From positions 1 through 64,000 of the forward strand of contig NZ_AGTS01000036.1 of NCBI RefSeq assembly GCF_000238595.1: DNA of 64,000 nucleotides, written 5' to 3'. This document shows positions 797-50,389 of this stretch, one piece after another. Under the pieces are notes generated by a model that searched no databases, had not been told where the DNA came from, and saw nothing but the letters and a program-made list of their open reading frames with translations. Made by a program: the position numbers and the translations under genes. The DNA comes from Acidovorax sp. NO-1 (GTDB lineage Bacteria > Pseudomonadota > Gammaproteobacteria > Burkholderiales > Burkholderiaceae_C). How positions within the stretch are numbered: position 1 is the stretch's first letter; every line of letters begins with the position of its first letter.

Positions 797-830
797 GCCT
801 GTCCGGCCGGAGTACGGCCTTCAATTGCGC

Positions 831-881
831 AAATTTGATAGCTGTAGGCGCTTATACAGCAAGCGCTGGAGGCCATTTTGA
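831..881 (+). repeat. Comamonad-type palindromic repeat, copy R1
   Basis: Contains gatagctg, then GCGCTT-N7-AAGCGC (hairpin arms) followed by TGGAGGCC and a T run. It lies between the glycine-zipper gene and the tRNA-Arg gene, downstream of both. Confidence 0.85.
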
Positions 882-890
882 CTATGAATA

Positions 891-965
891 TGGTCCCCTC
901 GACAGGAATCGAACCTGTATCTAGCGCTTAGGAGGCACTCGTTCTATCCATTGAACTACGAGGAG
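891..965 (-). tRNA. tRNA-Arg (anticodon CCU)
   Basis: Read on the minus strand, the 75 bases fold as a cloverleaf. The 7-bp acceptor stem pairs CTCCTCG with CGAGGGG (one T-G wobble). The anticodon loop is CTCCTAA, giving anticodon CCT, and the T arm is ACAGG-TTCGATT-CCTGT. The 3' CCA is encoded. It decodes AGG. Repeat copy R1 begins about 10 bases beyond its 3' end. No integrase gene or duplicated tRNA fragment is seen nearby. Confidence 0.95.
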
Positions 966-7409: not shown

Positions 7410-8597
7410 CTATTTGGACAGCAGCCGCATGGTTTCTTCGAGCCCCTTGAGCGACAGCGGGTACATGCGGTTGCCCAGCAGCTGCTGGATGATGCTGATG
7501 CTCTGGCGGTACTGCCACACCCCCTGGGGCTCGGGGTTGATCCACGCATGCTTGGGGAAGGCGTGCGTGAGGCGCTGGATCCACTCGGCGCCTGGCTCTT
7601 CGTTGTTGTATTCCACACTGCCGCCGGGCTGCAAAATCTCGTAGGGGCTCATGGTGGCGTCGCCCACGAAGATGAGTTTGTAGTCCTTGTTGTACTTGCG
7701 GATGATGTCCCAGGTCGGGAACTTCTCGGCAAAGCGGCGGCGGTTGTTCTTCCACATGAAGTCGTACACGCAGTTGTGGAAGTAGTAGAACTCCAGGTGC
7801 TTGAACTCATTCTTCACCGCGGAAAAGAGCTCTTCCACGCGCTGGATGTGCTCGTCCATCGTGCCGCCCACGTCCATCAGCAGCAGCACCTTCACGTTGT
7901 TGTGGCGCTCGGGCACCATCTTGATGTCCAGATACCCGGCGTTGGCAGCGGTACTGCGGATGGTGTCGGGCAGGTCCAGTTCGAGTTCATGCCCTTCGCG
8001 CGCAAACTTGCGCAGGCGGCGTAGCGCCACCTTGATGTTGCGCGTGCCCAGCTCCTGCTGGTCGTCGTAGTCCTTGTAGGCGCGCTGCTCCCACACCTTC
8101 ACGGCGCTCTTGTTCTTGCCCGCGCCGCCAATGCGCACGCCCTGCGGGTTGTAGCCGCCGTGGCCGAAGGGGCTGGTGCCGCCGGTGCCGATCCACTTGC
8201 TGCCGCCCTCGTGGCGTTCCTTCTGTTCTTCGAGGCGCTTTTTCAGCGTCTCCATCAGCTCGTCCCAGCCCATCTTCTCGATGGCGGCTTTCTGCTCGGG
8301 CGTGAGCTCGTTCTCCAGGATCTTGCGCAGCCAGTCGGCCGGGATCTCCTTGGTGAAGTCGGCCACCATCTCCACGCCCTTGAAGTAGGCGCCGAAGGCC
8401 CGGTCGAACTTGTCGTAGTGCTTCTCGTCCTTGACCAGCGTGAGGCGCGAGAGGTTGTAGAAATCGTCCAGGCTCCACGCGTCATCTGACCTGGGGCCCA
8501 CCACACCGGCCTGCAGGGCCTCGAGCAGGGTGAGGTATTCCTTCACGGACACCGGCAATTTGGCCGAGCGCAGGGTGTAGAAGAAGTCGATGAGCAT
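7410..8597 (-). CDS. CoxE-like von Willebrand factor A domain protein
   Basis: About 395 residues. Residues 1-200 are helical and charged. The VWA-like domain is about 230-390, with the metal-site region at MDVGGTMD (residues 241-248). A canonical MIDAS is DxSxS; here the two serines are Gly and Thr, so metal binding may be weakened. Members of this family pair with MoxR-type AAA ATPases as chaperone-like complexes that mature metal enzymes. A MoxR ATPase is encoded two genes upstream on the same strand. Its Shine-Dalgarno GGAGG (minus strand, 8606-8610) lies inside repeat copy R2, eight bases from the ATG. Confidence 0.85.
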   Translation of the reverse strand: MLIDFFYTLRSAKLPVSVKEYLTLLEALQAGVVGPRSDDAWSLDDFYNLSRLTLVKDEKHYDKFDRAFGAYFKGVEMVADFTKEIPADWLRKILENELTPEQKAAIEKMGWDELMETLKKRLEEQKERHEGGSKWIGTGGTSPFGHGGYNPQGVRIGGAGKNKSAVKVWEQRAYKDYDDQQELGTRNIKVALRRLRKFAREGHELELDLPDTIRSTAANAGYLDIKMVPERHNNVKVLLLMDVGGTMDEHIQRVEELFSAVKNEFKHLEFYYFHNCVYDFMWKNNRRRFAEKFPTWDIIRKYNKDYKLIFVGDATMSPYEILQPGGSVEYNNEEPGAEWIQRLTHAFPKHAWINPEPQGVWQYRQSISIIQQLLGNRMYPLSLKGLEETMRLLSK

Positions 8598-8600
8598 GAT

Positions 8601-8657
8601 ATTGGCCTCCAGCGCTTACTGGGTAAGCGCATGCCGCTCTAAAAGATATAGCAATTG
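8601..8657 (-). repeat. Palindromic repeat, copy R2, spanning a gene junction
   Basis: On the minus strand it reads TTGCTAT...GCGCTT-N7-AAGCGC then TGGAGGCC. Its left part is the last dozen codons of the GNAT gene, its core carries that gene's TAA stop, and its GGAGG is the ribosome site of the VWA gene. Confidence 0.8.
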
Positions 8658-9218
8658 TGCCTTGACCTCAGGCCACTCGCCAGTGCGCATGCTGTACATC
8701 ACCGTATCGCGGATGGTGCCGTCGCGGCGCAGTGCGTGGCCGCGGATCACACCGTCCTTTTTTGCGCCCAGGCGCTCGATGGCGCGTTGCGAGGCAAAGT
8801 TGAAGTTGTCGGTGCGCCAGCCCACCACATGGCAGCCCAGCGTGTCGAAGGCGTGGCCCATCATCAGGAGCTTGGCGGTGGTGTTGACGTGGGTGCGCTG
8901 CACGCTCTGGCGGTACCAGGTGTAGCCTATTTCCACGCGCTTCACGGCCGGCAGGATGTCGTGGTAGCTGGTGCTGCCCAGCACCGTTCCTGTCGCATCG
9001 TCTACCACCGCAAAAGCAAAGCGGTGGCCGTCTTCGCGCATCTTGAGCGCTGTCTCGATGTAGGCCCGTGTCTCATGCGGTTCGGGCACCGAGGTGATGC
9101 GCAGCTTCCACAGCTCGCCGTCCGCGGCAGCAGCGCGCAGGCCTTCTTCGTGCGCCAGGGCCAGCGGCTCCAGACGCACGCCGTTGTGGCACATCACCAG
9201 CGGTTCAACGAAACTCAT
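8616..9218 (-). CDS. GNAT family N-acetyltransferase (RimJ/RimL-like)
   Basis: About 200 residues with the GNAT fold of the RimJ/RimL type: LEPLALAHEEGL near the start, beta-4 region VLGSTSYHDI, the EIGYTWYRQSVQRTHVN acetyl-CoA stretch, and the NFASQRAIERLGAKKDGVIR element that ends such domains. It probably acetylates an amino terminus or a small amine; the substrate cannot be told. It sits between the MoxR ATPase and VWA genes on the same strand, 16 bases after the former. Its last residues (about LLYLLERHALTQ) and stop codon fall in repeat R2, so its C-terminus has been remodelled by the repeat. Confidence 0.88.
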   Translation of the reverse strand: MSFVEPLVMCHNGVRLEPLALAHEEGLRAAAADGELWKLRITSVPEPHETRAYIETALKMREDGHRFAFAVVDDATGTVLGSTSYHDILPAVKRVEIGYTWYRQSVQRTHVNTTAKLLMMGHAFDTLGCHVVGWRTDNFNFASQRAIERLGAKKDGVIRGHALRRDGTIRDTVMYSMRTGEWPEVKAQLLYLLERHALTQ

Positions 9219-14623: not shown

Positions 14624-15325
14624 ATGATCAACAAACTGGCGGACTCGGTAGCCCAGGCCCTGCAAGGGGTGAAGGATGGTGCCACGGTGCTGATTGGCGG
14701 ATTTGGCACGGCCGGCATTCCTGGAGAGCTGATCGACGGCCTCATTGCCCAGGGCGCGCGTGACCTCACGGTGGTCAACAACAACGCAGGCAATGCGGAC
14801 CAGGGCTTGGCCGCGCTGCTCAAGGCCGGCCGCGTGCGCAAGATCATCTGCAGCTTTCCGCGCCAGGTCGACAGCTACGTGTTTGATGACCTGTACCGCA
14901 GTGGCAAGCTGGAGCTGGAACTGGTGCCGCAGGGCAATCTGGCCGAGCGCCTGCGCGCTGCGGGCGCGGGCATTGGCGCCTTCTTCTGCCCCACGGCGCA
15001 TGGCACGGAGCTGGCCGCAGGCAAGGAAACGCGCGAGATCAACGGCAAGCACTACGTGCTCGAGTACCCCATCCACGGCGACGTGGCCCTGATCAAGGCC
15101 GAAAAGGGCGACCGCTGGGGCAACCTCACCTACCGCATGTCGGCGCGCAATTTCGGCCCCGTGATGGCCACGGCCGCCAAGACCACGATTGCCACTGTGC
15201 ACGAGGTGGTCACCCTGGGCGCACTGGACCCTGAAGCCATCGTCACGCCCGGTATCTACGTGAGCCACGTGGTCAAGATCGACCGCGTTGCCACGCAGGC
15301 TGGCGGTTTCAAGAAATCGGCATGA
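14624..15325 (+). CDS. pcaI: 3-oxoadipate CoA-transferase subunit A
   Basis: About 233 residues, the alpha subunit of a type-I CoA-transferase: INKLADSVAQAL, then the Gly-rich IGGFGTAGIPGELI CoA loop (about 23-36), NNNAGNADQGLAALL, and GNLAERLRAAGAGIGAFF. With subunit B it moves CoA from succinyl-CoA to 3-oxoadipate, the step before thiolysis in aromatic degradation. The stop codon overlaps the next start (ATGA). The regulator upstream and thiolase downstream favour pcaI over acetoacetate CoA-transferase. Confidence 0.88.
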   Translation: MINKLADSVAQALQGVKDGATVLIGGFGTAGIPGELIDGLIAQGARDLTVVNNNAGNADQGLAALLKAGRVRKIICSFPRQVDSYVFDDLYRSGKLELELVPQGNLAERLRAAGAGIGAFFCPTAHGTELAAGKETREINGKHYVLEYPIHGDVALIKAEKGDRWGNLTYRMSARNFGPVMATAAKTTIATVHEVVTLGALDPEAIVTPGIYVSHVVKIDRVATQAGGFKKSA

Positions 15326-15354
15326 AATTGGCCACCAGCGCAGAAGGAATAAGC

Positions 15355-16005
15355 GTGAGCAGCTATCAAAAGCGTAGTAAAGACGAGTTGGCAAAACGTG
15401 TGGCGCAAGACATCCACGATGGCGCCTACGTCAACCTGGGCATCGGCCAGCCCACCCTGGTGGCCAACCACATCCCCGAGGGCCGCGAAGTCATCCTGCA
15501 AAGCGAGAACGGCATCCTGGGCATGGGCCCGGCGCCCGCGGCAGGTCTGGAGGACTACGACCTCATCAACGCGGGCAAGCAGCCCGTCACGCTGCTGCCC
15601 GGCGGCGCGTACTTCCACCACGCCGACAGCTTCGCGATGATGCGCGGCGGGCATCTGGACATCTGCGTGCTGGGTGCATTCCAGGTGAGCGCCACGGGCG
15701 ATCTGGCCAACTGGAGCACCGGCGAGCCCGGCGCCATCCCCGCCGTGGGCGGCGCGATGGACCTGGCCATCGGCGCCAAGCAGACCTGGGTGATGATGGA
15801 CCTGCTGACCAAGCAGGGCGCCAGCAAAATCGTCACGCAGTGCACCTACCCGCTCACCGGTGTCGCGTGCGTGAAACGCATCTACACCGACCTGTGCACA
15901 CTGGCCTGCACGCCCACCGGGCTGCAGCTCATCGACATGGTGCCCGGCCTCACGCTGGCCGAGCTGGAGCAGCTGGTGGGCCTGCCCATCCGCCCCGCAG
16001 CCTGA
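15355..16005 (+). CDS. pcaJ: 3-oxoadipate CoA-transferase subunit B
   Basis: About 216 residues, the beta subunit. SENGILGMGPAP carries the catalytic Glu that forms the glutamyl-CoA thioester; GGAYFHHADSFAMMRGGHLD and the closing LAELEQLVGLPI are typical. I chose GTG at 15355 (SSYQKRSKDELA) because AAGGAA lies five bases upstream and homologues begin here. An in-frame ATG at 15322 overlapping the pcaI stop would add 11 residues. It forms the heteromeric transferase with PcaI and is followed 36 bases on by pcaF. Confidence 0.87.
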   Translation: MSSYQKRSKDELAKRVAQDIHDGAYVNLGIGQPTLVANHIPEGREVILQSENGILGMGPAPAAGLEDYDLINAGKQPVTLLPGGAYFHHADSFAMMRGGHLDICVLGAFQVSATGDLANWSTGEPGAIPAVGGAMDLAIGAKQTWVMMDLLTKQGASKIVTQCTYPLTGVACVKRIYTDLCTLACTPTGLQLIDMVPGLTLAELEQLVGLPIRPAA

Positions 16006-17993: not shown

Positions 17994-18146
17994 CGTGTGA
18001 TCTGACGACTTTTATCGCCCCCTGACCGCGGGGGCACCCACCGAGGTTCTCGCCCAGGCGCCCGCGCCCGGTTGAGGCCATGGCACGTCCAGCTTCTGGC
18101 GCGCCACTGCGATTTTTTCACCACCATCCTGAAGGAGACAAGCCTC

Positions 18147-19154
18147 ATGAACCCGATCACGAACTCTGCACGCCGCCGCTTCACCCTGGGCGCCATCGCC
18201 TCTGCCGCCGTGCTGGGCGCAGGCCTTGTCGCCAGCCCCGCTGCGTTCGCCCAGGCCTACCCCACCAAACCCGTCACCATCGTCGTGCCGTTTGCCGCAG
18301 GTGGTACCACCGACATCCTGGCGCGCATCATCGGGCAGGCTCTGACCACCGAGCTGGGCCAGTCGGTCGTCGTGGATAACCGCGCAGGCGCTGGCGGCAA
18401 CATTGGCGGCGCAATGGCTGCCAAGGCCGCCGCAGACGGCCACACCCTGTTCATGGGCACGGTGGGCACGCACGCCATCAACGCCGCCTTGTACAAAAAG
18501 ATGCCGTTCGACCCCGTCAAGGACTTCGCCCCGCTGACCCGCGTGGCCAACGTGCCCAACCTGCTGGTGGCCCACCCCGCCCAGCCGTTCAAGACGGTGC
18601 CCGAGCTGATCGCCTACGCCAAGGCCAACCCCGGCAAGATCAACTTTGGTTCGTCGGGCAACGGCAGCTCCATCCACCTGTCAGGCGAGCTGTTCAAGAG
18701 CCTGGCCAAGGTGGACATGGTGCACGTGCCCTACAAGGGCAGTGCCCCGGCTGTGACGGACCTGCTCGGCAACCAGATCGGCATCATGTTCGACAACATG
18801 CCCTCGGCCATCCAGCATGTGCGCAGCGGCAAGCTGGTGCCCATCGCCGTGACCACCGCCAAGCGCTCGCCCGAGCTGCCCAACGTGCCCACCATCGCCG
18901 AAGCGGGCGTACCCGGCTACGAGGCCACGTCGTGGTTTGGCATGTTTGCCCCCGCTGGTACGCCTGCGCCCGTGCTGGCCAAGCTCAATACCGCGCTGGT
19001 CAAGGTACTGTCCCAGCCTGACGTGAAGAAGAAGATCAACGAGCAGGGCGCTGAAACCTACAGCGAAACACCCGCACAGTTCGCCGCCTTCATCCAGGCC
19101 GAGAGCGTGAAATGGGGCAAGGTCGTCAAGGAATCAGGCGCCAGCGTGGACTGA
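18147..19154 (+). CDS. Bug-type periplasmic solute-binding protein (TctC family)
   Basis: About 335 residues with a twin-arginine-like signal (ARRRFTLGAIASAAVLGAG, cleavage near AFA-QAYPTKP). The mature protein starts with the family signature YPTKPVTIVVPFAAGGTTDILAR and contains DNRAGAGGNIGG and VPYKGSAPAVTDLLGNQI. Bug proteins bind carboxylates in the periplasm, sometimes feeding tripartite tricarboxylate transporters and sometimes as orphans. No TctA/TctB genes are nearby. Its place at the end of the pca cluster, 153 bases after the SDR, suggests it binds an aromatic acid or beta-ketoadipate-like ligand. A strong AAGGAG site fixes the start. Confidence 0.88.
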   Translation: MNPITNSARRRFTLGAIASAAVLGAGLVASPAAFAQAYPTKPVTIVVPFAAGGTTDILARIIGQALTTELGQSVVVDNRAGAGGNIGGAMAAKAAADGHTLFMGTVGTHAINAALYKKMPFDPVKDFAPLTRVANVPNLLVAHPAQPFKTVPELIAYAKANPGKINFGSSGNGSSIHLSGELFKSLAKVDMVHVPYKGSAPAVTDLLGNQIGIMFDNMPSAIQHVRSGKLVPIAVTTAKRSPELPNVPTIAEAGVPGYEATSWFGMFAPAGTPAPVLAKLNTALVKVLSQPDVKKKINEQGAETYSETPAQFAAFIQAESVKWGKVVKESGASVD

Positions 19155-19178
19155 ACGCTGCGGAGAGGTTAACCATCA

Positions 19179-19227
19179 AAAAAGATAGCTTCTGACGCTT
19201 GATGGATAAGCGCCAGAGGCTGTTTTG
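19179..19227 (+). repeat. Palindromic repeat, copy R3
   Basis: gatagct, ACGCTT-N7-AAGCGC, CAGAGGC and a T run, between the Bug gene and the convergent surface-adhesin-like gene; it may also act as their shared hairpin. Confidence 0.82.
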
Positions 19228-19267
19228 ATGGGTATTCTGAGAGCGCTAAACGCTGCTGCGGCCGCGG

Positions 19268-21925: not shown

Positions 21926-21982
21926 TGCTATTGTTAATGTAGCGGTTGGCGCTTTATGGATAAGCGCTACAGCCCGTTTTTA
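21926..21982 (+). repeat. Palindromic repeat, copy R4, overlapping the Kef stop codon
   Basis: tgctat...tagcggttg, GCGCTT-N7-AAGCGC, then ACAGCCCG and a T run. On the minus strand the right arm encodes the last residues (DKNGL) and the TAG stop of the Kef protein. Confidence 0.8.
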
Positions 21983-23877
21983 TCAGGATTCTGGATGCTG
22001 GCAGGCGCATCGCCTTGTGCCGCATCGTCCGCGCCGCCATACCCCGGGTACTCCGCCCCCGCCGCGCTCAGCGCCGCACTCTCCTGCCGCTCTTTGGCCA
22101 TCTGCTCGGCCAGCTGGTTGCGCCCCTCGCGGGCTACCGCGATGAACTTGGCGCGGTCCTTGTGGTGCGGGTACATGCGGTCGGCCAGGGCGATGTTGTG
22201 GGTGCGAAAGCGCTGGGTGATGGCGGTGGCTTGCGCGGGTGGCAGGCCCATCAGCTCCAGCACGGTGTGGGCGCTTTGCAGGCTGGACTCGAACAGCTCA
22301 CGTTGCACCAGCGTTACGCCCAGGTCGCGCAGCTTGTTCCAGTGGGTGATGTCGCGGGCGCGGGCCACCACCTGCAGGTGGGGGAAGTGCGCGCGCGCCA
22401 GCCTGGCAATCTGCACGGACTGCTCGGCATCGTCCACGGCAATGACAAGGATGCGCGCGTGTTCGGCCCCGGCAATGCGCAGCAGGTCGAGCCGGGTGGC
22501 GTCGCCATAGAACACGCGGTAGCCGAAGGTGCGCGCCACTTCCAGCATGTCCACGCTGTGGTCCAGCACGGTGGTGGGGATGCCCTGCGCCAGCAGCACG
22601 CGCGAGACGATCTGCCCATAGCGGCCGAAGCCCGCGATGATGATGGGCGCCTCCTGCGGCTCGGAGATTTCCTCGGCCTGGGGCGTGGCGGTCTTGAGCT
22701 GCGCATGGCGGCGCAACAGCACGCGGTCCAGCAGCACCAGCAGCAGCGGGCTGATCAGCATCGACAGCGCCACGGCGCCAATCAGCAGCGAGGCGGTCTC
22801 GGCCGGGAAGACGCGGGCGCCCGCAGCGGCCTGGAACACCACAAACGCAAACTCGCCGCCCTGCGCCAGCAGCAGGGTGAACACCGGCCGCTCCTGATAC
22901 GGTATGCCGACGAACCTGGCCAGGGCATAGATGACGATGGCCTTGGCCGCCAGAAAGCCGACCAGGACGGTGGCCATGACGCCGGGCGAGCGCAGGATCA
23001 CGCCGAAGTCGATGCTCATGCCCACGGCGATGAAGAACAACCCGAGCAGCAGACCCTTGAAAGGCTCGATGTCGGCCTCCAGCTCGCGGCGGTATTCGCT
23101 GTCGGCCAGCAGCACGCCGGCCAGAAAGGCGCCCAGCGCCATCGACAGGCCCACCAGCACCATCAGGTAGGCGATGCCCACCACCAGCAGCAGCGCGGCG
23201 GCGGTGAAGATCTCGGGGGTGTTGCTTTTGGCGATCCAGCGCAGCACGGGCCGCAGCAGCAGGCGACCGCCGAGAATGATGGCCGCGATCACGCCGATGA
23301 TCTTGAGCACCTCCAGCACCAACTCGCCCGGGGTGTGGCCTGCGCCACCGGCCGCGGCGGCGCCCAGCACGGGCAGCAGAGTCAGGATGGGGATGGCCGC
23401 CACGTCCTGGAACAGCAGGATGGAAAAGCCCGCCTGCCCGCTCTGCGTGCGCATGAGGTTGCGCTCGGCCAGCGTCTTGAGCGCAATGGCCGTGGACGAC
23501 AGCGCCAGGCCCAGCGCGCCCACCAGCGCCACACGCCAGGGCAGGCCGGCCAGCGCGCCCAGCGCAAACAGCACGGCCGCGCAGCCCAGCACCTGCGCGC
23601 TGCCGGTGCCGAAGATCGGGCGGCGCAGCGCCCACAGGCGGCTGGGCTGCAGCTCCAGGCCGACAAGGAACAGCATCAGCACCACGCCAAACTCGGCAAA
23701 GTGCAGGATGTCCTGCACGTTGCTCACCAGCCCCAGGCCCCAGGGCCCGATGGCGATGCCCGCCGCCAGGTAGCCAATGATGGCGCCCAGGCCCAGCGCC
23801 TTGGCAATGGGCACGGCCAGCACGGCGGCGGTGAGGTACAGGAAACCGTAGGTAAGCCAGGTGGGGGCGTGTTCCAT
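21967..23877 (-). CDS. Kef-type monovalent cation:proton antiporter
   Basis: About 636 residues. An N-terminal CPA2 exchanger domain of 12-13 membrane segments (about 1-390, with GLELQPSRLW, SSTAIALKTL and LLFQDVAAIP motifs) is followed by a cytoplasmic TrkA-N Rossmann domain (about 415-530, IIIAGFGRYGQIVSRVL, the GxGxxG nucleotide site). It exchanges K+ or Na+ for protons, as in KefB/KefC. A hydrophilic tail of about 80 residues follows; its last five and the stop come from repeat R4. The ATG at 23877 is chosen by homology to the first helix; the longer frame would cover the upstream repeat. Confidence 0.9.
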   Translation of the reverse strand: MEHAPTWLTYGFLYLTAAVLAVPIAKALGLGAIIGYLAAGIAIGPWGLGLVSNVQDILHFAEFGVVLMLFLVGLELQPSRLWALRRPIFGTGSAQVLGCAAVLFALGALAGLPWRVALVGALGLALSSTAIALKTLAERNLMRTQSGQAGFSILLFQDVAAIPILTLLPVLGAAAAGGAGHTPGELVLEVLKIIGVIAAIILGGRLLLRPVLRWIAKSNTPEIFTAAALLLVVGIAYLMVLVGLSMALGAFLAGVLLADSEYRRELEADIEPFKGLLLGLFFIAVGMSIDFGVILRSPGVMATVLVGFLAAKAIVIYALARFVGIPYQERPVFTLLLAQGGEFAFVVFQAAAGARVFPAETASLLIGAVALSMLISPLLLVLLDRVLLRRHAQLKTATPQAEEISEPQEAPIIIAGFGRYGQIVSRVLLAQGIPTTVLDHSVDMLEVARTFGYRVFYGDATRLDLLRIAGAEHARILVIAVDDAEQSVQIARLARAHFPHLQVVARARDITHWNKLRDLGVTLVQRELFESSLQSAHTVLELMGLPPAQATAITQRFRTHNIALADRMYPHHKDRAKFIAVAREGRNQLAEQMAKERQESAALSAAGAEYPGYGGADDAAQGDAPASIQNPDKNGL

Positions 23878-23970
23878 GGAGGGGCCGTGGTGGCATGGGG
23901 TGGGCGTATCGGAATTCTGGCATTCCCGTGGCGGTGCAGGGTGCGCAGCGCTGCCGCTTATTGCGCTTCT

Positions 23971-24020
23971 GTTTTGATAGCTGTTCGCGCTTGATGGTAA
24001 AGCGCTGGAGCTCATTTTTA
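23971..24020 (+). repeat. Palindromic repeat, copy R5
   Basis: gatagctgttc, GCGCTT-N7-AAGCGC, TGGAGCTC and a T run, in the gap between the divergent Kef and LysE-family genes, so it lies in the upstream region of both. Confidence 0.85.
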
Positions 24021-24092
24021 TTCACACCGTGGCAACGGTGCGGGGGCGTTGTTAAGATGCTGGCCCTTCTTCGCACACAGGTACGGTGACCC

Positions 24093-24738: not shown

Positions 24739-24795
24739 ATTGCTATAAAAATAATAGCTTTTGGCGCTTGTCTATCAACCGCTGGAGGCTGATTT
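24739..24795 (+). repeat. Palindromic repeat, copy R6
   Basis: Long form: TTGCTATAAAAATAATAGCT, then GCGCTT-N7-AACCGC (one arm mismatch), TGGAGGCT and a T-rich end. It begins eight bases after the LysE-family stop. Confidence 0.82.
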
Positions 24796-24837
24796 GGCTT
24801 GATTTTTCATGGTTGTGCAGATTCCAAGGAGGTTGTC

Positions 24838-38575: not shown

Positions 38576-39193
38576 ATGCCCATGCTGAAACGAAATGCTC
38601 TTAAATTGATAGCTGTCAGCGCTTTATCCATAAGCGCTGCGAGCATTTTTAGTGCCTGTTCCGAGAAAAAAACCGAGTTTCGGGGCGTGGACATCACCGG
38701 CGCGGAGTACGCCCGTGACATCCCGCTCACCGACCACAATGGCCAGGCGCGCCACATCAAGGACTTCGCGGGCAAGGTGGTGGTGGTGTTCTTCGGCTTC
38801 ACGCAGTGCCCTGATGTATGTCCCACGGCCATGCAGGAGCTGGCCGAGGTCAAGCAGATCCTGGGCAAGGATGGCGACCGCCTGCAGGGCATCTTCGTGA
38901 CCGTGGACCCGGAGCGCGACACCCCCGAAGTGCTCAAAGCCTACATGGCGAACTTCGACCCGAGTTTCCTGGCCTTGCGCGGATCACCCGAGCAGCTCGC
39001 TGCCGTCGCCAAGGATTTCAAGATCTACTACAAGAAGGTCGACGGCAAGACGCCCACCAGCTACACCATGGACCACTCGGCGGGCAGCTACGTGTACGAC
39101 ACGGCGGGCCGTCTGCGCGTGTACAACCGATATGGCAGCGGCGCGCAGGCGCTGGCGTCCGATGTCAAGGCGCTGCTGGGCGAGGCGGGCTGA
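38576..39193 (+). CDS. SCO1/SenC copper chaperone lipoprotein
   Basis: About 205 residues. The signal peptide ends in a lipobox (FSAC, about residue 24), then a Sco domain: VVVFFGFTQCPDVCPTAMQEL with the CxxxC copper pair, TVDPERDTPEVLKAYM, and the copper His in MDHSAGSYVYD. It delivers copper to the CuA site of subunit II. Almost the whole hydrophobic core of the signal peptide (LKLIAVSALSISAASIF) is encoded by repeat copy R7. No ribosome site is visible before 38576; the start may rely on coupling to ctaB. Confidence 0.92.
   Translation: MPMLKRNALKLIAVSALSISAASIFSACSEKKTEFRGVDITGAEYARDIPLTDHNGQARHIKDFAGKVVVVFFGFTQCPDVCPTAMQELAEVKQILGKDGDRLQGIFVTVDPERDTPEVLKAYMANFDPSFLALRGSPEQLAAVAKDFKIYYKKVDGKTPTSYTMDHSAGSYVYDTAGRLRVYNRYGSGAQALASDVKALLGEAG
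38600..38650 (+). repeat. Palindromic repeat, copy R7, inside the sco signal peptide
   Basis: ttgatagctgtca, GCGCTT-N7-AAGCGC, TGCGAGC and a T run, lying wholly within codons 9-25 of the sco gene and open in that frame. Confidence 0.85.
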
Positions 39194-46177: not shown

Positions 46178-47626
46178 ATGAAACGCGCTGTCACCCTCCT
46201 GGGCCTGCTGGCCTGCCTCACATGTGGGGCTGCCTTTTCGGCAACGCCTCCCGCTTCCCAACCCCCTGCGACGCCTTCTGAGTCCGCGCCGTCTGCCACG
46301 GCCTCCGGCGCCCAGCAGTTCACGCTCAAGAACGGCATGCAGCTCATCGTGCAGCCCGACCGGCGTGCTCCCACCGCGGTGCACATGGTTTGGTTGCGCG
46401 TGGGCTCCATGGACGAGGTGGACGGCACCACCGGCGTGGCCCATGTGCTCGAGCACATGCTGTTCAAGGGCACCAGGACGCTGCCGCCGGGCGAGTTCTC
46501 GCGCCGCGTGGCCGCCCTGGGCGGGCGCGAAAACGCGTTCACCAGCCGTGACTACACGGGCTACTACCAGCAGATTCCATCGAACCGGCTCGAAGACGTG
46601 ATGAAGCTCGAATCCGACCGGTTTGCCCACAACCACTGGCCGGATGAAGAGTTCAGGAAAGAGATCGAGGTCGTCAAGGAAGAGCGCCGCCTGCGCACCG
46701 AAGACCAGCCCCGCGCCATGCTGGCCGAGCAGCTCTTTGCCACCACGTTCATTGCCTCGCCGTACCGCCGCCCCATCGTGGGCTGGATGAGCGACCTGGA
46801 CGCCATGACGCCCGAAGACGTGCGCGCCTTCTACCGCCAGTGGTACACGCCCACCAACGCCGCCGTGGTGGTGGCAGGCGACGTGGACGTGGCCCAGGTC
46901 CGCGCACTGGCCGAGAAGTATTACGGCAGTCTGCCCGCCCACGCGCTGCCCGAGCGCAAGCCCCGCACCGAGCCCGCGCAGCAGGGCCTGCGCCGCCTCG
47001 CTGTCAAGGCACCGGCCGAGCAGGCCTACGTGGCGCTGGCGTTTCGTGCGCCCAGCTTGAACCGTGTGGAGAACCTGACCGAAACCGACCGCGACGCTCT
47101 GGCGCTCATGGTGCTGTCGGCGGTGTTCAACGGCTACGACGGCGCGCGGCTCGACCGCGCGCTGACCCAGGGCGAAAACCGCGTGGCCGACAGCGCCAGC
47201 AGCGGCGCCATGGTCACGGGCCGTGGCCCCAGCCTGTTCATGCTCAGCGGTGTGCCCGCTGCAGGCAAGACGGCCCAGCAGGTGGAAGACGCCCTGCGCG
47301 CCGAGGTCACCCGCGTCGCCCGCGATGGGGTCAGCGAGGCTGAGCTGACCCGCGTGAAGACGCAGTGGATCGCCTCGACCGTGTATGAACGCGACTCGGT
47401 GATGAACCAGGCGCAGGAGCTGGGGGGCAACTGGATTCAGGGCTTTCCGCTCGACGCCAACGAACGCCTTCTGGAGCTGCTGCGCACCGTGACGCCCGCC
47501 CAGGTGCAGGCCGTGGCCGCCAAATATTTTGGCGACGACCAGCTCACGGTGGCCACCTTGCTGCCCCAGCCGCTGGATTCCCCCCGCCCCCGCGCACAGC
47601 CCGCACCCGGTGCGTCCCGCCACTGA
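46178..47626 (+). CDS. M16-family zinc peptidase, catalytically complete
   Basis: About 482 residues with a signal peptide (AVTLLGLLACLTCGAAFSA, cleavage about 23) and a Pro/Ser linker. The inverted zinc motif HxxEH is intact (HVLEHMLFKGT, about residues 90-100) and the third ligand Glu lies in EIEVVKEERRLRTEDQP. Two M16 domains follow the pitrilysin/PqqL plan. It is exported, probably periplasmic. The next gene encodes an M16 protein without the zinc motif, and such pairs form heterodimers like mitochondrial processing peptidase. Confidence 0.92.
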   Translation: MKRAVTLLGLLACLTCGAAFSATPPASQPPATPSESAPSATASGAQQFTLKNGMQLIVQPDRRAPTAVHMVWLRVGSMDEVDGTTGVAHVLEHMLFKGTRTLPPGEFSRRVAALGGRENAFTSRDYTGYYQQIPSNRLEDVMKLESDRFAHNHWPDEEFRKEIEVVKEERRLRTEDQPRAMLAEQLFATTFIASPYRRPIVGWMSDLDAMTPEDVRAFYRQWYTPTNAAVVVAGDVDVAQVRALAEKYYGSLPAHALPERKPRTEPAQQGLRRLAVKAPAEQAYVALAFRAPSLNRVENLTETDRDALALMVLSAVFNGYDGARLDRALTQGENRVADSASSGAMVTGRGPSLFMLSGVPAAGKTAQQVEDALRAEVTRVARDGVSEAELTRVKTQWIASTVYERDSVMNQAQELGGNWIQGFPLDANERLLELLRTVTPAQVQAVAAKYFGDDQLTVATLLPQPLDSPRPRAQPAPGASRH

Positions 47627-47647
47627 ACCCGCTTTGCGCCTCTTTTC

Positions 47648-48994
47648 ATGATTACTATTAAAAACATAGCTGCTCGCGCTTTACTGATAAGCGCTGGAGC
47701 CGTTTTTTATTCAAATTCTGCCTGGGCGCTGCTGCCCATCCAGCACTGGGTGGAGCCCAGCGGCGCCAAGGTGTATCTGGTCGAAAGCCCGGTCATCCCC
47801 ATGGTGGACGTGCAGATCGACTTTGATGCCGGCAGCCGCCGCGACCCGGCAGGCCAGTCGGGCCTGGCCAGCGCCGTGGCGTCGATGGCCAGCAAGGGCG
47901 TGAAGGCGGCGGGCAGCGAACCGGCGCTGGACGAGAACGCGCTGGGCGAGGCCTGGGCCGATCTGGGCGCCAGCTTTGACGCGGGTGCCGACAACGACGC
48001 GCTGCACTACACGCTGCGCTCGCTCACCGACCCGGCGCTGCTCGACAAGGCCGCCCGCCTGGCTGCGCGCCAGATCGGTGAGCCGGGCTGGCCCGCCGAC
48101 GTGTGGGAGCGCGACCGCGCGCGCTGGGGCGCCAGCATCAAGGAGTCCCTCACCCGCCCGGCCACGGTGGCCGCCCATGCGTTCGGCTCGGCCGTGTACG
48201 GCAGCCACCCCTACGGTGTGCGCACCACCGAGGAGACCCTGGCGCGCATCAGCGTGGCCGACATGCAGGCGTTTCACACGCAGCACGTTGCGGCCTGCCG
48301 CGCCAAGGTCAGCATCGTGGGCGCCGTCACGCGCGCACAGGCGCAGACGCTGGTGGCCACGCTGCTGTCGCGCCTGCCCGCCACATCGGGCTGCGCGCCG
48401 CTGCCACCCGTGGGCGAAATCGACGCCCTCGCGGCGCCGGTGGAGCAGAACATTCCGTTTGCGTCCGCCCAGGCCCATGTGCTGATCGGCCAGCCCGGCT
48501 TTCAGCGCAAGGACCCGGACTTCCTCGCGCTGCTGGTGGGCAACCACATCCTCGGCGGCGGTGGTTTTGTCTCGCGGCTGACGAACGAAGTGCGTGAAAA
48601 GCGTGGCCTGAGCTATAGCGTGTACAGCTACTTTGCGGCGGGCCTGCATGCCGGTGCCTTCACCGTGGGCCTGCAGACGCGGCCAGACCAGGCGCGAGAG
48701 GCGGTGCAGGTGTCGCGCGACGTGATCGCGCGCTACGTGGCGGAAGGCCCCACAGAGGCCGAGCTGCGCGCCGCCAAGGACAACCTCATCGGCGGCTTTG
48801 CGCTGCGCATCGACAGCAACAAGAAGCTTCTGGGCAACGTGGCCAACATCGCCTGGAACGAGCTGCCGCTGGACTACCTCGACCAGTGGACCAAGAAGGT
48901 GGAGGCCCTCACGGTGGCCGATGTGCGTGCCGCCATGGCGCGCAAGCTGCAACCCGAACGCATGGTGACCGTGGTGGTGGGGGGCAAGCCATGA
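47648..48994 (+). CDS. M16-family protein lacking the zinc site
   Basis: About 448 residues. Where the partner has HxxEH this has SGLASAVASMASKG, so it is an inactive subunit. C-terminal motifs include the GGGGFVSRLTNEVREKRGLSYSVYSY segment that helps bind substrate in active/inactive M16 dimers. Its signal peptide (cleavage near SAWA) is encoded by repeat copy R8, in the same frame as R7 in sco. There is no ribosome site before the ATG. It overlaps the rsmD start by four bases (ATGA). Confidence 0.9.
   Translation: MITIKNIAARALLISAGAVFYSNSAWALLPIQHWVEPSGAKVYLVESPVIPMVDVQIDFDAGSRRDPAGQSGLASAVASMASKGVKAAGSEPALDENALGEAWADLGASFDAGADNDALHYTLRSLTDPALLDKAARLAARQIGEPGWPADVWERDRARWGASIKESLTRPATVAAHAFGSAVYGSHPYGVRTTEETLARISVADMQAFHTQHVAACRAKVSIVGAVTRAQAQTLVATLLSRLPATSGCAPLPPVGEIDALAAPVEQNIPFASAQAHVLIGQPGFQRKDPDFLALLVGNHILGGGGFVSRLTNEVREKRGLSYSVYSYFAAGLHAGAFTVGLQTRPDQAREAVQVSRDVIARYVAEGPTEAELRAAKDNLIGGFALRIDSNKKLLGNVANIAWNELPLDYLDQWTKKVEALTVADVRAAMARKLQPERMVTVVVGGKP
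47655..47708 (+). repeat. Palindromic repeat, copy R8, inside an M16 signal peptide
   Basis: acatagctgctc, GCGCTT-N7-AAGCGC, TGGAGCCG and a T run, spanning codons 4-20 of the M16 gene without a stop. Confidence 0.85.
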
Positions 48995-49818: not shown

Positions 49819-50319
49819 ATGGCCCAGAACGTGCTCGCCGTGTACCCCGGAACCTTTGACCCCATCACACTGGGCCATGAAGACGTGGTGCGCAGGGCCA
49901 CCCAGCTGTTTGAACGTGTGATCGTGGCCGTGGCAGCGGGGCACCACAAGAAGACCCTGTTCTCTCTGGAAGAGCGCATCGAGATGGTGCGCGAAGCCGT
50001 CAAGGACTACCCCCAGGTGCAGGTGGAAAGCTTCTCGGGCCTGTTGCGCGACTTTGTGGTGTCACGCGGCGGCAAGGCCATGGTGCGCGGACTGCGTGCA
50101 GTGACCGACTTTGACTACGAGTTCCAGCTGGCCGGCATGAACCGCAGCCTCATGCCGCAGGTGGAAACCGTGTTCCTCACGCCCAGCGACAAGTACCAGT
50201 TCATCAGCAGCACCTTTGTGCGCGAGATCGCGGTGCTGGGCGGCGAGGTCACCAAGTTCGTGTCGCCCTCGGTTGAACAGCGGCTCGCCGTCAAGGTGCG
50301 CAGCCTGTCGCCAGCCTGA
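49819..50319 (+). CDS. coaD: Phosphopantetheine adenylyltransferase
   Basis: About 166 residues, nucleotidyltransferase fold. YPGTFDPITLGHEDVV (about 8-23) contains the TxGH motif and ISSTFVREIAVLGG the C-terminal signature; RGLRAVTDFDYEFQLAGMNR lies between. It adenylates 4'-phosphopantetheine in coenzyme A synthesis. ACAGGAG precedes the ATG. Repeat R9 begins eight bases after its stop. Confidence 0.96.
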   Translation: MAQNVLAVYPGTFDPITLGHEDVVRRATQLFERVIVAVAAGHHKKTLFSLEERIEMVREAVKDYPQVQVESFSGLLRDFVVSRGGKAMVRGLRAVTDFDYEFQLAGMNRSLMPQVETVFLTPSDKYQFISSTFVREIAVLGGEVTKFVSPSVEQRLAVKVRSLSPA

Positions 50320-50326
50320 AAATTTG

Positions 50327-50389
50327 AATCAAAACTGGCTCTGGCGCTTGCTGGTAAAGCGCCGACAGCTATCAAATATATAGCTATTG
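50327..50389 (-). repeat. Palindromic repeat, copy R9
   Basis: On the minus strand: ATAGCTATATATTTGATAGCT, GCGCTT-N7-AAGCGC, CAGAGCC and a T run. It fills the gap between the convergent coaD and LysR genes, and its ATAGCT end carries the LysR TAG stop. Confidence 0.82.

Follow-up and report, generated by a model that had tools for sequence, protein, structure and literature searches.

The stretch of DNA analysed here, hereafter the window, comprises the 64,000 nucleotides at positions 1 to 64,000 of contig NZ_AGTS01000036.1 of Acidovorax sp. NO-1. It contains two genes of unrelated families whose 5' ends include copies of the same 64-bp interspersed repeat: one encodes an M16-family protein without the HxxEH zinc motif, the other a SCO1/SenC (Sco) lipoprotein (Table 1). 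The M16-like gene starts with the ATG at 47648, and its product begins with MITIKNIAARALLISAGAVFYSNSAWA, then LLPIQHW. Codons 4-24 lie inside a repeat copy at 47657-47720 (54.4 bits, E = 4e-16 in a search of the window), from which the charged and hydrophobic parts of the signal peptide come; residues 5-21 are KNIAARALLISAGAVFY. The N-terminus of Sco, read from the ATG at 38576, is MPMLKRNALKLIAVSALSISAASIFSAC. An earlier note on this DNA had read the M16-like start as the repeat in the Sco frame, position for position alike; this likeness is real, as the repeat is read on the same strand and in the same frame at both gene starts, and the protein identities given there also hold (by the Pfam M16 and SCO1-SenC families and, for the missing zinc motif, by reading of the sequence). 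With [LVI][ASTVI][GAS]C as the lipobox pattern, Sco qualifies as a lipoprotein through its orthologues, which have LTAC (L247) or LGAC (L273, L283), the window copy having FSAC, with an unusual F. The closest relatives of the M16-like protein are Acidovorax records (24 of the 80 named relatives are so called; best identity 93%).

When the 5' end of the M16-like gene is compared with its own genome, 40 matches are listed, itself included, and the two best ones elsewhere are again gene starts, those of a chalcone-isomerase-like (Chalcone_3) and of a DUF1775 (YcnI-like) protein; the match to the chalcone-like gene (91% over 80 bp) is also the longest among the matches listed. The Chalcone_3 protein starts with MTTMKNIAACALLISAGAFFYSNSALA, then QA; the DUF1775 protein with MPRTTMKNIAACALLISAGGIFGSASA, then HVV; a cupredoxin with MNTIKLIAACALCISASTSFG, then H; and an ABC auxiliary lipoprotein with MQNTMKNIAVRAYPSSARATFGSIFVVLALVLAGC. 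All four use the repeat in the frame of M16 and Sco, which we call frame +0. Two further proteins use the opposite strand: an M48/BepA-like protease (L425, G000:C113:29231-30799), whose signal peptide is derived from the antisense strand of the repeat, and AtoA (CoA transferase, Pfam CoA_trans; 15313-16005, + strand), which carries the N-terminal extension MKLATSAEGISVSSYQ in another antisense frame. The earlier note had allowed that its two cases might be chance if no other secreted protein began with the repeat; three more same-frame starts (chalcone-isomerase-like, DUF1775, cupredoxin) are present in the genome.

These fusions emerged from a screen that combined the collected repeat copies, obtained mainly by DNA searches (30 loci came through a peptide profile), with a codon-usage model. 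Full N-terminal overlaps numbered 14, 11 of them in frame +0, and after reading and Pfam assignment 8 were retained as real, all but AtoA (7/8) being exported by family. Among the rejected candidates, L041, L192, L179 and L112 were judged to be spurious open reading frames (ORFs), L055 is UbiD-like by eye with a native start downstream, and L059 (EarP, the EF-P rhamnosyltransferase) was removed from the N-terminal set because its repeat is internal. EarP (G000:C19, ~134.3 kb) appears to bear two in-frame internal repeat copies in opposite orientations. As a rule for signal peptides we required a positive n-region, a hydrophobic core of 9 or more residues without charge, and an A-x-A-like site or a lipobox within reach; the rule is permissive, being satisfied by 63/262 coding ORFs of the same DNA. 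It is satisfied by M16, chalcone-like, DUF1775, Sco, cupredoxin and M48/BepA-like, and failed by the ABC auxiliary lipoprotein and AtoA. Relative to the 63/262 rate, 7/8 exported by family corresponds to p = 2.9e-4 and 6/8 by the rule itself to p = 0.0034; with the two initial cases (M16, Sco) removed, 5/6 are exported (p = 0.0039). Three of the five host families with frame +0 signal peptides (Sco, cupredoxin and DUF1775, which we take to be copper-related) are linked to copper, which may be chance.

Signal peptides are loosely constrained, and the matches of the screen included spurious ORFs and cases with a downstream native start. That all the gene starts described here resemble a hydrophobic frame of the repeat by chance, or are misplaced with the repeat in the 5' untranslated region, is nonetheless scarcely credible: the M16, Sco, DUF1775, chalcone-like and cupredoxin genes score 36.6 to 54.2 repeat bits, M16 and chalcone-like share 91% of 80 bp, the next in-frame ATG of the M16-like gene comes no earlier than residue 52, and the same junction recurs in many species. 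The homology of these starts as DNA, their common frame and the gene families concerned are matters of observation, as are their conservation and codon pattern, described below.

The repeat itself is abundant. The window contains 11 strong copies and some weaker matches, and the genome at least 150 by a covariance model applied to the best 150 of 4088 first-look candidates; in the DNA collected from the genome, 172 places reach 25 bits or more (179 minus seven that share flanks with a stronger match, as copies were told apart by their flanks). Frame +0 is the most often open of the six (80 of 170 complete copies, against 2, 48, 42, 45 and 58 in the other five), and to this extent the earlier claim that it is the frame that avoids stops was right; it went too far in that the majority consensus carries a TGA in the loop in frame +0, so that roughly half of the family is closed and not usable. 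A stretch of 12 residues with a Kyte-Doolittle value above 1.6 is found in 49% of the open copies in +0, in 22% in one antisense frame, in 9% in another and in none in the rest. Frame +0 thus leads the six both in openness and in hydrophobicity, and second in hydrophobicity comes the antisense frame in which the M48/BepA-like protein is read. Only 20/170 copies are open in +0 and also have a charged residue ahead of a 9-residue core. Searches of the whole window against Rfam at the gathering score returned one tRNA only and no family for the repeat, and none was found in 47400-47900 at E up to 1. The genome has one Y1_Tnp gene, without a repeat in its 1.5-kb flanks, a result with which spread of the repeat in trans by the Y1 transposase is still compatible.

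The M16, Sco, chalcone-like, DUF1775, cupredoxin and M48/BepA-like fusions recur in related species. A profile of ten repeat-derived signal peptides matched 40/47 genomes of the genus at E ≤ 1e-7 and 21/299 genomes drawn from the family at E ≤ 1e-8 (at most the best 28 candidates per genome being scored). From these matches 107 loci were read: 42 M16, 22 Sco, 21 DUF1775, 7 Chalcone_3, 5 cupredoxin (by blastp; L272 is included with a tentative start codon) and 10 that are not signal peptides (L250, L285, L289, L290, L295, L298, L299, L300, L301, L302). The five families account for 97 of the 107, a count that is not independent, as the profile was built from such peptides and two DUF1775 places occur twice. 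A protein search independent of the profile found Chalcone_3 orthologues in 42/47 genomes; of 30 loci read, 22 have >10 repeat bits and the other 8 a similar peptide, e.g. MKNIAITAIFTSALMAFGPQTALAQ. M48 orthologues are present in 47/47 genomes, with >10 bits of antisense repeat in 12 of the 30 read, one of which (L448) has stops in its frame. Among the named M16 orthologues, 43/80 have >10 repeat bits at the signal peptide, and these belong to Acidovorax, Simplicispira, Giesbergeria, Comamonas, Rhodoferax, Polaromonas and others; several orthologues have unrelated signals (e.g. Curvibacter HBC61, Pseudorhodoferax Leaf267). On a quick tree, in which 67/86 rows were called derived, most labels being assigned by a short motif or >10 repeat bits and eight by hand (L418-L421, L424, L323, L325, L326), M16 signal peptides switch at least 10 times between the repeat-derived and the other kind. 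We use this tree only to conclude that the repeat-derived M16 signal peptide is old and has been lost or replaced several times. One weak solved-structure relative of DUF1775 (3esm) was not used.

Ten genomes of the genus were searched with the repeat model (E ≤ 1e-5, best 150 candidates scored in each). Six of them (G127, G133, G135, G139, G162, G120) have zero or one repeat, the others 36, 56, 149 and 150; in the repeat-poor genomes the family has been either lost or never gained. Five of the six (all but G120) have an M16 match, starting with MLTIKNIAARALLIGASTLVHCHPAWA in G127, with MINFKKLAVGT.LASSSALFYCGSAWA in three and with MIKFKKFAASALLASTCALLASPAWA in one, and their DNA has been rewritten with GC-rich codons while the peptide pattern was kept. 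The Sco peptides of these genomes look eroded (MLKRNTLKTIAAGAISISTLALISAC; MHKRHALRMIAMGATALAGSALLGAC), and three of the genomes have a second Sco gene with an unrelated signal; Sco of G120 (L474) was excluded, as its frame is not cleanly readable. Considering these M16 and Sco peptides together with the unrelated Chalcone_3 signals described below, the signal tag probably can outlive the repeat family and can also be replaced.

These relics bear on two other accounts. The persistence of the M16 peptide where repeats are scarce is what would be expected if the direction were reversed, with one gene's signal-peptide sequence ancestral and the repeat family spread from it. We regard this as highly improbable: of the five unrelated genes it could account for one at most, and the others would still require transfer from repeat to gene, the palindrome and the 3' part of the family have no evident signal-peptide role, and the same stem motif in Acidovorax ebreus occurs 114 times, 107 of them intergenic (PMC5217627). 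Ongoing gene conversion between intergenic and coding copies, in place of a one-time domestication, could explain why the M16 and chalcone-like copies of this genome are 91% identical over 80 bp. It is an unlikely way of keeping coding copies alike, given that orthologues share gene-specific words (chalcone ALWISAGAFFYSNSAIAQ in L265 and L266, Sco AVSALSISAA in several) and that matching peptides persist in the repeat-poor genomes.

Selection was analysed over 16 codons from the conserved K in distinct orthologous sequences (25 M16, 20 Sco, 19 DUF1775, 28 Chalcone_3). The ratios of non-synonymous to synonymous change (pN/pS) are 0.49 for M16, 0.53 for Sco, 0.67 for DUF1775 and 0.64 for Chalcone_3, and in all four the third codon position is the most variable; 161 non-coding copies of the genome are without codon-position bias (0.293, 0.294, 0.280), and 85 open non-coding copies have a pN/pS of 1.16. 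The bootstrap interval over codons for the difference between third and second positions excludes zero for M16 and Sco. Pairing of the six-pair stem is 0.98 in non-coding versus 0.76-0.90 in coding copies and, at <72% identity to the consensus, 0.95 (34 copies) versus 0.73 (44 copies). The third-position changes and the pN/pS values below 1 point to selection on the peptide and not on the palindrome. These data bear on the hypothesis that the repeat is kept at gene starts as a DNA or mRNA element (a hairpin, or a promoter-near or translation-initiation element), with signal-peptide coding incidental. Such a role would fit the position of the repeats near gene ends in the window, the fact that AT-rich starts can aid initiation, and the 5' part of M16, ACTATTAAAAANATAGCT, which is strikingly similar as DNA in many orthologues. 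It is very unlikely because coding copies, unlike non-coding ones, are biased towards third-position change and have a pN/pS below 1, because their stem decays, and because repeat-poor genomes retain the peptide pattern under GC-rich recoding.

The interpretation that we favour, and hold to be highly probable, is a repeated and old domestication of an interspersed repeat as a signal peptide in Comamonadaceae. On one of its strands and in a single frame, the palindromic 64-bp element happens to encode a charged start that leads into a hydrophobic stretch (approximately xIKxIAxxALxISAxxxFxSN). Copies that came to lie at the 5' ends of genes for exported proteins, or took the place of these ends, would have been kept as the n- and h-regions of a Sec signal peptide, insertion or replacement being the inferred route and Sec the inferred pathway, and the 3' end of the copy together with the host gene would have provided the lipobox or the A-x-A cleavage site. 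Since one signal peptide can stand in for another, such fusions would be tolerated in exported proteins and could then be selected as peptides. Five or more mutually unrelated families would have gained a signal in this way (M16-like, Sco, DUF1775, chalcone-isomerase-like, cupredoxin), the copies then being inherited across species, several across genera, with selection holding the peptide rather than the DNA palindrome. The wider claim, that the repeat family is a recurrent donor that has independently served five or more conserved periplasmic or lipoprotein families, and one more through its opposite strand, with signals that outlive the family, seems to us likely.

Several points weigh against this interpretation. 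The real fusions were told from the spurious ones by reading, and the set of copies is incomplete, only the best 150 of the 4088 candidates having been scored. In the ABC auxiliary lipoprotein the repeat precedes a native hydrophobic core and only extends the native signal, and AtoA has the repeat on a cytosolic protein. None of the five M16 starts of the repeat-poor genomes reaches 10 repeat bits, which makes them relics by peptide and orthology alone, and in four of these genomes Chalcone_3 has an unrelated or unrecognisable signal, either through loss or because it never had the repeat. The pN/pS of the coding copies is relaxed; the bootstrap interval includes zero for DUF1775 and Chalcone_3; the non-coding control copies are paralogous while the coding set is orthologous; and the stem comparison favours the non-coding copies, which were found with stem-rewarding models. 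The earlier proposal of a repeat that serves as a ready-made donor of signal peptides is strengthened by the additional unrelated exported proteins with the same frame, in the genome and among orthologues, and by the codon pattern, and needs to be narrowed: it applies to signal peptides of exported proteins, and does not cover the cytosolic N-terminus of AtoA, the internal copies of EarP or a copy at the C-terminus of a GNAT protein.

Table 1. Genes, predicted signal peptides and repeat copies in the window.
Feature	Coordinates	Strand	Basis or remark
M16-family protein without HxxEH zinc motif	47648..48994	+	Pfam PF05193 + PF00675 (Peptidase_M16/M16_C); motif absence read from sequence
Signal peptide of M16-like protein, 27 codons	47648..47728	+	n-region K, hydrophobic core, A-W-A before LLPIQHW; putative cleavage site
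Repeat copy R8, coding, frame +0	47657..47720	+	Repeat search of window
Upstream M16 protease, HVLEH motif, unrelated signal peptide MKRAVTLLGLLACLTCGAAFSA (internal contrast)	46178..47626	+	Pfam and sequence reading
SCO1/SenC lipoprotein	38576..39193	+	Pfam PF02630
Lipoprotein signal peptide of Sco, ending before lipobox Cys (38657-38659)	38576..38656	+	Alternative start ATG 38582
Repeat copy in Sco, coding, frame +0; lipobox Cys within copy	38600..38663	+	Repeat search of window
Repeat copy between long ORFs	829..892	+	Repeat search
Repeat copy at C-terminus of GNAT protein (8616-9218, -)	8590..8652	-	Pfam PF13302
Repeat copy, antisense giving AtoA N-terminus MKLATSAEGISVSSYQ; cytosolic, no signal peptide	15313..15376	-	Repeat search, Pfam
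Repeat copy downstream of stop codon of ORF 18072-19154	19176..19239	+	Repeat search
Repeat copy overlapping 3' end of Na/H-exchanger-type gene (ends 21967, -)	21930..21993	+	Repeat search
Repeat copy between divergent genes, in upstream part of exchanger ORF	23968..24031	+	Repeat search
Repeat copy between co-oriented ORFs	24745..24808	+	Repeat search
Repeat copy between convergent ORFs	50318..50382	-	Repeat search
Repeat copy between gpsA and secB (both -), edge touching gpsA start codon	54058..54121	+	Repeat search

In the GNAT acetyltransferase (region 8590-9218, - strand) the last residues, LLERHALTQ, are supplied by the repeat. In-frame copies of the repeat are found in several unrelated conserved ORFs (the eight N-terminal fusions, and EarP internally), as with the palindromic elements of Rickettsia, which are repeats of ~150 bp found in frame in unrelated genes, with no role named in the available text (PMC10969869). 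EarP with its two internal copies is a parallel; the repeat described here differs in lying mainly at gene starts of exported proteins and in having a plausible function.

The stem of the repeat is already in print. The motif GCTTAT(N)5AAGCG of Acidovorax ebreus TPSY, of which 5 of the copies lie in genes and 2 overlap them, has the same stem and spacing; it is generally found <50 bp from gene ends, is reported only as a potential motif of unexplained function, and a signal peptide goes unmentioned in the accessible part of that paper (PMC5217627). Signal peptides formed in part by repeats have been predicted in Yersinia, where the enterobacterial repeats RU-1f and RU-2/YAPL occur in predicted exported proteins, mainly YPO1552 and also YPO2495, RU-1f occurs in YE2643, and relatives of YPO1552 bear unrelated signal peptides (Delihas 2007; PMC2759123, PMC2229807). 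As far as the available text of these reports goes, the Yersinia cases are few and predicted, in small or poorly known ORFs, with elements of ~127-168 bp (PMC2759123, PMC2229807); the repeat studied here is a different, 64-bp element, used in one frame in five conserved families and many species, with a codon-level test. The betaproteobacterial repeat element BRE is likewise a short interspersed intergenic repeat that occurs in Comamonadaceae and sometimes within ORFs; it is up to ~90 bp long, has a GC content of ~69% in Bordetella, is in part arranged in tandem and numbers 1-29 copies per tabled genome (PMC3110155). It is set apart from the AT-richer and far more numerous repeat described here by description, not by sequence. 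REP/RAYT and MITE families are short interspersed elements of the same intergenic kind; REP elements are associated with a RAYT (Y1) transposase, and no copy of the present repeat adjoins the one Y1 transposase gene of the genome. Literature searches by sequence string returned only titles unrelated to the repeat. Searches by concept, with most subscription papers outside reach, gave the cases of Delihas 2007 as the signal-peptide precedents found; a paper describing this repeat as a signal peptide, or a single repeat in such use over several conserved families, was not among the results. What appears to be new, as far as these searches go, is the recurrent donor role of one repeat over several conserved families.

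The significance of these fusions for signal-peptide evolution lies in the fact that the source sequence is still present, at well over a hundred genome copies, so that gain, selection and decay may be traced gene by gene and species by species. To our knowledge the origin of new signal peptides is mostly unknown, their divergence being too fast to trace. In these genomes, start-codon calling and signal-peptide annotation must reckon with repeat-derived starts. If the interpretation proposed here is true, it would describe a general route by which non-coding repeats of bacteria become targeting signals.
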